Shown piece by piece: positions 33,993 through 54,019 of a DNA stretch of 64,000 bases. The stretch's first letter is position 1, and the number at the start of each line of letters is the position of its first letter. Below the pieces are notes generated by a model, which ran no database searches, was not told the DNA's origin, and saw nothing but the letters and a program-made list of their open reading frames with translations. The translations under genes were made by a program, and so were the position numbers. This stretch comes from an uncultured Verrucomicrobiota bacterium (GTDB lineage: Bacteria > Verrucomicrobiota > Verrucomicrobiia > Opitutales > Opitutaceae), in the NCBI GenBank assembly GCA_903904685.1, contig CAIVDS010000058.1, positions 1 to 64,000 of the forward strand. The letters run 5' to 3'.

Positions 33993-34065
33993 GATTGCTT
34001 TTTAAGTTGCTGGAATAGTGCGCCATGAATACCAGCAAACATCTGCAATGCTAAGTTTTCCACGC

Positions 34066-35055
34066 ATGGATACATTCATAATCTTGACGGTAGTTAGTGC
34101 TATTCTCGCATTAAGTGCAGTCGTGGTAAAATGGAGTGATGATCAGTCAAAGGCTGCAGCAGAGGCTGCAGCAGAGAAGGTGGAAAAGGCTCGCCAAGGG
34201 AGTTTGGCTGAATTGCGCCAGCAGGAAATTATTCAGATGTTCGTAGCTAAAAATGAAATCGAAAGTCTCCGAACGCAGCTTGAGCGTAAAACAAAAGAAG
34301 TGGCGCCGAATACGACTGACGATCATGGGGACTTATCCGCTACTTTTACTGAAGGGCTAGACAGGTCGATAAATTCGGCCCTGAGGGAAATTAACGAAGA
34401 AGCCGTGCTTGCCGTTAAAAAACGCGCAGAGGATCTAAGGAAGAGAAAAGAAGCTGAGCAAAAAGCCGAAGAAATTAACCGCGTAGCTAGGGCCGTTCTC
34501 GTGAAAGTCCGGCAAGCTGTTCTTACGACTTTTAACGCAGCACCTAAGCTGGGGTTCGAGGTGGTGGAAGAAATGAGCCCATACGCCCCTGAATGGGTAA
34601 AAGGCGTTTATCCGATTCCCGGGAAAATAGTGTTCGTTCAAGGAGACGAACGCCTACGGCAAGAATTCAAAGATTTTTATCTTTTTAAAATATCATCCAA
34701 AAATGGAATGTGTGCCGTATGCAAATGGAGCCCGGGAATAGTGTCGCCAGAAAATCTGCCCGATACGCCTCCCTCCCTAGTCATAGCGGCTGGCGAAGGA
34801 AGCGACCCTCACCCTTGGCTACCTGCGGCAGCGCACTTCATTTTTACAGGAGAAACACGCGCTAGTGGCCCCATCATCAGTGTGAGGTACGAGCCTTCGT
34901 TTGAGACGAAAGCCGAGATTATCTTGCACCTTGTTACTGCCCACAACGACGGGAAGTTAAGTGCAGAAGAGCTTGCATCTAAAGTTACGATAGAAGTTCT
35001 GAAGCACCTGCGAGGCATGGAGATTTCGGAGCTCGAAAAAAAGGGAGCACGCTAA
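34066..35055 (+). CDS. Low-GC hypothetical protein with membrane anchor and coiled coil
   Basis: A 329-residue protein, not recognised. A single N-terminal membrane helix (IILTVVSAILALSAVVV) is followed by about 110 residues of Ala/Glu/Lys-rich coiled coil (KAAAEAAAEKVEKA, KKRAEDLRKRKEAEQKAEE) and then a globular C-terminal domain of some 180 residues containing YLFKISSKNGMCAVCKWSPG. Other starts at 34018 (GTG) and 34048 (ATG) are in frame. Base use differs from neighbours: 53 G+C in 120 bases at 34201-34320 (44%) by hand count, with many A-ending codons. This suggests recent transfer. It stands alone between repeat copy E and the heptad locus. Confidence 0.7.
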   Translation: MDTFIILTVVSAILALSAVVVKWSDDQSKAAAEAAAEKVEKARQGSLAELRQQEIIQMFVAKNEIESLRTQLERKTKEVAPNTTDDHGDLSATFTEGLDRSINSALREINEEAVLAVKKRAEDLRKRKEAEQKAEEINRVARAVLVKVRQAVLTTFNAAPKLGFEVVEEMSPYAPEWVKGVYPIPGKIVFVQGDERLRQEFKDFYLFKISSKNGMCAVCKWSPGIVSPENLPDTPPSLVIAAGEGSDPHPWLPAAAHFIFTGETRASGPIISVRYEPSFETKAEIILHLVTAHNDGKLSAEELASKVTIEVLKHLRGMEISELEKKGAR

Positions 35056-35124: not shown

Positions 35125-35796
35125 CTACCTTTCTTGATCAGACCGGGTGGGTTTGGGGTTGGTAGCCGACTTGCCCGCTGGCGGATGGTTTTGGGCTTCC
35201 GGCGAGTCTTTTAAGGCTTTTGGCGATTCCCGACTGTCTGTTGGCGGAGATTTTTTCGCCGTTGGTGCATCCCGGTTGCGTAAAAACGGTTCCCGATAGG
35301 CCAAAAATGGCCTCCGACAATCCGAAAACGAATTACGGCAATCCATAAAAGTCTTCCGATAATCCTCCAAAGGATTCCGATCTTCCTTCAGGGGCTTCCG
35401 AACTTACTTCTGGGTATTCCGATCTTCCTTCTAAGGATTCCGAATCAGTAATAATGCTTCCCGAATCTCCGTTGGCGAAGGCTTTTTTGGCGTTGGTGAA
35501 GCCATTTTCTCCTTCTTTTGAAGTCTTTTGTGTGGAAACGAAGGGTTTTTGCCCGGAAACAGTGGATTTTTGTCTGTCGAAGCATCCCCGGCGCTGTCCG
35601 GCCATGCCGGTTTTGCCAATGGTCGGAGTTTGCGGCCCGTCGGCGGAGGGCGCACGAGCACCGGTTCGCTCGCGGCGAGACGCAGGGCGAGGTCGCACGC
35701 ATTCCGGCATCCGGCGTTTGCGATGAGCGCGGCGGCCAACACCGTTTCAACCGACCCGCCCCGACCTCGGACCAACGGCAAGGCCGAACGCTTCAT
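35125..35796 (-). pseudogene. Broken heptapeptide-repeat gene (21-bp tandem repeat)
   Basis: One minus-strand frame from ATG 35796 to the stop at 35125 is interrupted by TAG (35431-35433) and TAA (35404-35406). From about 35570 to 35140 it is a degenerate tandem repeat with 21-bp period: roughly 20 units whose peptide consensus is YRKPFxD-like, for example DCRNSFS, DCRRPFL, AYREPFL, and degenerating at both ends to forms such as PKKPSPT and ALKDSPE. The period continues unchanged through both stops, so this is a single decayed or recoded locus. The first 70 residues are not repetitive and were not recognised. The alternative is non-coding tandem-repeat DNA. Confidence 0.5.
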
Positions 35797-35857
35797 CCAA
35801 CCCCTCGCCAGAGAGCGGGCTTATACGACCGGTGACGAACGCTACAGGCGGATTTGA
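35762..35857 (+). pseudogene. IS481-type transposase 3' fragment
   Basis: The last 31 codons of this frame, starting RPRTNGKAERFIQPLARE and ending at TGA 35857, match the conserved end of the integrase (rve) core of IS481-family transposases, whose catalytic Glu lies in NGKxERF. The rest of the transposase and the inverted repeats are absent. It overlaps the 5' end of the heptapeptide pseudogene on the other strand by 35 bases. Confidence 0.65.
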
Positions 35858-53943: not shown

Positions 53944-54019
53944 GGGCTCTTAGCTCAGTTGGTAGAGCGCCTGCATGGCATGCAGGAGGTCAGCGGTTCG
54001 ACCCCGCTAGGGTCCACCA
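53944..54019 (+). tRNA. tRNA-Ala (anticodon GGC)
   Basis: A 76-base cloverleaf. Acceptor GGGCTCT pairs with AGGGTCC with two G-U type pairs, D-arm TAGCTCAGTTGGTAGAGC, anticodon stem CCTGC-ATGGCAT-GCAGG with anticodon GGC, T-arm GCGGTTCGACCCCGC, and encoded ACCA. A terminator follows. Confidence 0.96.

Follow-up and report, generated by a model that had tools for sequence, protein, structure and literature searches.

We find that the 21-bp repeat at 35136-35664 of the window (the window being the whole stretch of 64,000 nucleotides that was analysed) is one member of a family of arrays which is dispersed through its genome, lies between genes, is non-coding, and keeps to a nearly strict step of two helical turns (21 bp being two turns of B-DNA). 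By computation, most of the copies tested are strongly bent. We suggest that these arrays form a dispersed, intergenic and non-coding satellite-like element of 21-bp units, and there is about an even chance that it is maintained for the shape of its DNA; we infer that it is this shape which has been retained and that the arrays serve a nucleoid protein.

Self-match within the window array is 0.469 at a lag of 21, 0.435 at 42, 0.414 at 63 and 0.382 at 84, while 1000 dinucleotide shuffles average 0.255 (SD about 0.02, and 0.019 at lag 21; maximum 0.32); when all lags from 5 to 199 were scanned, these four alone exceeded 0.36. An earlier note on this DNA had described some 20 units extending over 35125-35796: the period that it reported is real, but alignment to other copies sets the left end at 35664 and the right end at 35136, a length of 529 bp with about 25 units. 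In the tandem-repeat analysis that it proposed, TRF alone detects only 4.3 copies (35354-35443) because the units of the array are degenerate. The parts of the array, and the sequences beside it, are as follows:

35136..35664, minus strand: the whole element, a 21-bp periodic non-coding array of about 25 units (from lag-21 self-match and alignment to other copies)
35458..35664, minus strand: left part, with A-runs each 21 bp, alike in other copies (about 72-91% to C41, C67, C85, C19, C35, C21, C87 and others; consensus)
35310..35457, minus strand: variable core of TCGGAA-type units, containing TAG at 35431-35433 and TAA at 35404-35406 (core type and length vary between copies)
35136..35309, minus strand: right part, alike in other copies (about 68-91% to C12, C85, C98, C35, C21, C87; consensus)
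35446..35572, no strand: the 126 bp predicted to be the most bent within the 64-kb window (wedge model, 182 degrees, centre 35509)
35656..35736, minus strand: aldo/keto reductase gene fragment of 27 codons, adjoining the left end and outside the array (78% identity to residues 219-245 of ORF G000:C85:4181-5035)
35729..35830, plus strand: remnant of the C-terminus of an IS481-type transposase (NCBIfam NF033577 E=4.3e-5; Pfam rve_3 E=0.012)

The reductase ORF on C85 stands to the left of another array copy and matches Aldo_ket_red with E=7.5e-5, just under the cut-off, while the NF033577 score of the IS481 remnant is far below that family's cut-off, as expected of a fragment. Bases 35665-35796 are pieces of other genes and not array, and they supplied the ATG of the minus-strand ORF first proposed here (35431..35796, ending in the TAG at 35431); this apparent ORF is a chance fusion, since its ATG sits in non-array gene fragments. 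Lying side by side where the array has its left end (35656-35830), the reductase fragment and the transposase remnant form a small rearrangement scar.

Reading the array as a heptapeptide-repeat gene is tempting because a 21-bp period imitates heptad coding; the heptads show up for no other reason than that 21 is a multiple of 3, and we correct that misreading here. The earlier note was right that TAG and, as the next stop beyond it, TAA both lie in frame, with period and frame continuing unbroken across the two, and it had offered recent gene decay, stop-codon recoding or a repeat free of coding selection as explanations. It is the last of these that the data support. Between copies, substitutions per site at codon positions 1, 2 and 3 were 0.177, 0.182 and 0.176 (102 ungapped blocks, 9250 bp, from 13 of the 14 copies, C92 being left out, as were 14 phase-mismatched blocks, blocks shorter than 24 bp and alignments above 95% identity). 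In these comparisons between copies, the share of synonymous changes in the six frames was near that of random placement (z of 0.14, 0.15, 1.18, 1.09, 0.36 and 2.22). When adjoining units within the window array were compared with each other, mismatch by codon position was 0.524, 0.497 and 0.574 (p = 0.35). When the translated frames were compared with 141 genomes no intact protein relative was found, only the repeat itself: one frame matched in two genomes (its own and G097) and the other in three, the third being G229, whose protein match we rejected as a homologue, as the sequence there has no period and no array. The heptad frames gave no match above cut-off in Pfam, PHROGs or NCBIfam. A codon-usage gene caller placed no genes inside the 14 copies, though its sensitivity is limited, as it also missed the ORF at 34018-35055 of the window.

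Equal codon positions together with the lack of an intact homologue, the combination which the earlier note had named as refuting its proposal, mean that neither recoding nor recent gene decay is needed, and that the heptapeptide-repeat gene itself is unsupported. A decayed family of such genes would fit the period of seven codons and the long stretches over which some frames are open; as it leaves the flat codon positions (between copies and units alike) and the empty searches of genomes and families unexplained, we consider it very improbable. A translated gene with stop-codon recoding, suggested by the way frame and period run on through TAG and TAA, is scarcely credible, for matching frames of different copies carry differing stops (TAA, TAG and TGA), a coding signal is absent and the proposed start lies inside a fragment of another gene. 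A structured RNA was also considered and rejected: no Rfam match falls in the array (in the whole window Rfam matches only a tRNA, at 53944), and neither strand gives a stable fold (z of +0.78 and +1.21).

When the window array and other copies served as queries against the array's own genome (3.23 Mb, 114 contigs), 13 further copies came to light, giving a total of 14 on 12 contigs, all of them intergenic: the window copy on C58, two copies each on C35 and C85, and one each on C19, C41, C12, C21, C98, C67, C87, C22 and C92. Contig ends cut off four of these (C12, C98, C67 and the second C35 copy), and there may therefore be more copies, and longer ones, than we count; the C41 and C22 copies are truncated. 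In 260 kb of the same genome that had not been picked for the element, there was no array. Of the 12 copies with a left flank, nine have a same-strand gene there whose 3′ end precedes the left end of the array, which we do not count as significant; the window copy is among the three exceptions.

Most copies have their left and right parts in common, at roughly 70-91% identity, and have cores unlike one another. The cores fall into at least four types: TCGGAA-type in the window, C35a, C19 and C21; TTGGGAATAGTT-type in C67, C98, C35b, C12, C85a and C22; GAACGGAT-type in C87 (with which C92 has its left part in common); and CTAAAGT-type in the second C85 copy. These types are unrelated and all hold the 21-bp step. 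In C87, of about 45 units, the sequence drifts gradually along an almost unbroken step. The spacing has exceptions, as a 20-bp step is present in C67, C98 and C85a, and one-base indels make up 57 of the 91 gaps counted between copies (repeats across pairs included). Conservation across the 21 positions of the unit is uneven in all eight arrays tested (p <= 0.0065), and a conserved block can be told from a variable one within the unit (TTGGGAATAGTT plus 9 bp). Since the end units are shared and the core units differ in number and type, whole elements were probably copied around the genome, with core units gained and lost in the middle of the array.

Bend was predicted from a dinucleotide wedge model as a mean per 126 bp, and the values are predictions only. 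Nine arrays entered the bend test and eight the test of position conservation; C12, C41, C22, C92 and the second C35 copy are in neither. Mean predicted bend was 98.7 degrees for the window array, 57.1 for C35a, 81.1 for C21, 48.8 for C19, 99.0 for C87, 116.8 for C67, 120.5 for C98, 97.2 for the first C85 copy and 101.2 for the second, against a background in the same genome of 33.9 degrees (SD 18.6, 99th percentile 86.4). Compared with 200 dinucleotide shuffles, bend was greater at p < 0.005 in seven of the nine arrays (C35a 0.03, C19 0.165); compared with permutation of the 21 columns, a control which retains the period, it was greater at p <= 0.003 in five, with C21 at p = 0.06, the second C85 copy at p = 0.08, and C35a and C19 not significant. 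The window array gave p < 0.005 against both controls and p = 0.002 by the AA/TT vector, a cruder measure at 10.5 bp which reached p < 0.05 in four of nine arrays; it is also the predicted bend maximum of the 64 kb, the runner-up standing at 112 degrees. As their A- and T-runs come back in phase with the helix, intrinsic bending is predicted for most of the arrays.

Whether this shape is selected was approached by a leave-one-out test, in which the differences of each copy from the consensus of the others were re-placed at random and the bend compared. Real substitutions retain more bend than random ones in 11 of 21 tests (p < 0.05), with a combined Fisher p of 1.2e-10 that is overstated where copies form clades; two overlapping templates (three of nine and four of eight tests < 0.05) were excluded from the combined figure. 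In neutral simulation, star-like or four-clade trees put 3-8% of tests below 0.05 and two clades put 17-22% there, so that the excess is suggestive only. Across three templates the rate of change was 0.048, 0.118 and 0.135 in A/T runs, 0.373, 0.150 and 0.199 at other A/T sites, and 0.178, 0.185 and 0.124 at G/C sites. A pairwise shape test (observed 101.5 versus simulated 69.7 degrees) was set aside as biased under neutrality.

The element was found in this one species alone, apart from a single contig that had been binned to another genome. Among 56 relatives, matches came from the own genome and G009 alone, and congeners had no homologue; the G009 DNA match is a chance 22-bp stretch in sequence without the period. 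Among 200 genomes of the family, matches came from the own genome and G097 only, where contig 88 (CAIMFY010000088.1, uncultured Opitutae bacterium, Umea2p3_bin-1644) is 100% identical to C12 over 1784 bp; because of this identity the contig, although binned to another genus, was probably mis-binned or very recently transferred. C12 itself starts in the array and carries an MmeI-like gene. In 1.79 Mb sampled from five other genomes, no array dominated by a 21-bp period was seen between genes. An empty-site comparison in congeners found none, because the congener flanks are not syntenic, and an unsystematic look at array ends noticed neither terminal inverted repeats nor target duplication. An origin in a phage or plasmid was rejected, since one or two queries against each set (phages, plasmids, viral contigs) yielded no match.

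Our preferred reading, that the arrays are retained for their shape, draws on 14 copies spread over 12 contigs with no gene called inside them and with flat codon positions; it draws also on the 21-bp step shared by at least four unrelated core types, on the uneven conservation across the unit in all eight arrays, on the leave-one-out tests, and on a predicted bend that lies above controls in most arrays and makes the window array the peak of its 64 kb. DNA shape would then most likely be the feature retained, and the arrays could act as bent platforms between genes, fixing loops or binding nucleoid proteins of the HU/IHF type; two HU/IHF-family genes in the own genome (C93, C110) count in favour of this, and no H-NS match was found there. 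Going further, it is possible, if doubtful, that we are seeing a shape-selected bacterial satellite, whose unit sequence turns over freely while bend and helical phase are kept and whose built-in bends organise the chromosome between genes. Several results tell against selection for shape: C35a and C19 show no predicted bend beyond column permutation, with C21 and the second C85 copy borderline; the AA/TT measure is significant in just four of nine arrays; the leave-one-out test is too generous with two clades; and one-base indels separate copies, with 20-bp steps in three arrays. Absence from congeners argues against an essential role.

The main rival is that of a neutral or selfish 21-bp satellite which arose by slippage, was carried to intergenic sites through transposition or recombination, and serves no function; we take this seriously while thinking it somewhat less than evenly probable. 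On this view the bending would simply come with 21-bp units that are rich in A/T. This reading would suit an element known from its own species and one contig binned elsewhere, with two truncated copies, a nested hairpin repeat, two weakly bent arrays and evidence of shape selection that is only suggestive, but it does not lead one to expect several unrelated cores with the same step, most of them predicted to bend beyond a control that keeps the period. Alternatively, a sequence-specific protein might sit on the conserved half of each unit, as on an iteron- or centromere-like array, so that its sites would all lie on one face of the helix. The two-turn spacing, and the presence of a conserved and a variable block in the unit (TTGGGAATAGTT plus 9 bp), would agree with this; the unit sequence is nevertheless unlike between arrays, and replication or partition proteins were absent among the ten flanking proteins scanned, which makes it improbable.

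We found no description of such an element in literature on 21-bp repeats, curved DNA, repeats of Opitutaceae/Verrucomicrobia or STRR, and each known system that it resembles also differs from it. In iteron arrays of plasmid replication origins, as here, direct repeats each span about two helical turns and have some positions conserved and others variable, but our arrays are dispersed in many copies and degenerate, with several unit types and scanned flanks that lack a replication protein. Cyanobacterial STRR are likewise short tandem repeats scattered between genes, though of heptanucleotides, whereas the arrays have a period of 21 rather than 7 and homologous ends. REP/BIME/MITE-type repeats share with them a dispersed, intergenic, multi-copy and non-coding nature; unlike these, the arrays are internally periodic and variable in length, and neither hairpin structure nor inverted ends were noticed in them. 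Intrinsically curved bacterial DNA with phased A-tracts (Tong and Mrazek 2014, PMC3940949) shares with the arrays, and clearly with that of the window, A/T runs in helix phase and predicted bending, and it too may be linked to nucleoid proteins; the signal there is diffuse, genome-wide and of 10-11 bp, in contrast to our arrays, which are discrete, are made of 21-bp units and recur with homologous ends at about 14 places.

With unrelated unit types at the same helical step in one genome, the arrays could offer a natural system for separating selection on DNA shape from selection on sequence. Should they prove to be bent in cells and to be bound there by nucleoid proteins, discrete curved-DNA elements of a bacterial chromosome would become open to direct testing.

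Other repeats were seen in these genomes. The congener G002 has nearly identical AGCT-rich 21-bp arrays in frame inside open genes (L073 7800-7990 and L079 5410-5560), which add SSLELRA or SSELSAR heptads to ORFs that we take to be DegT-like aminotransferase and Hsp70-like; they resemble our arrays in having 21-bp units in a related genome, and differ in their unrelated AGCT-rich unit, near-identical repeats and position within open genes. Intergenic 7-bp tandem repeats with a secondary signal at 21 occur at L070 12453-12663 (G002) and L206 19131-19341 (G032). In the own genome a second dispersed repeat, hairpin-like and built around GGTAGGGCGAGGC...GCCTCGCCCTACC with flanks like AAAGGTAT, is found within or beside four array copies:

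L098 2660-2760 (C35): hairpin-like second repeat
L042 1420-1500 (C35): hairpin-like second repeat
L096 14050-14150 (C21): hairpin-like second repeat
L017 1300-1370 (C22): hairpin-like second repeat
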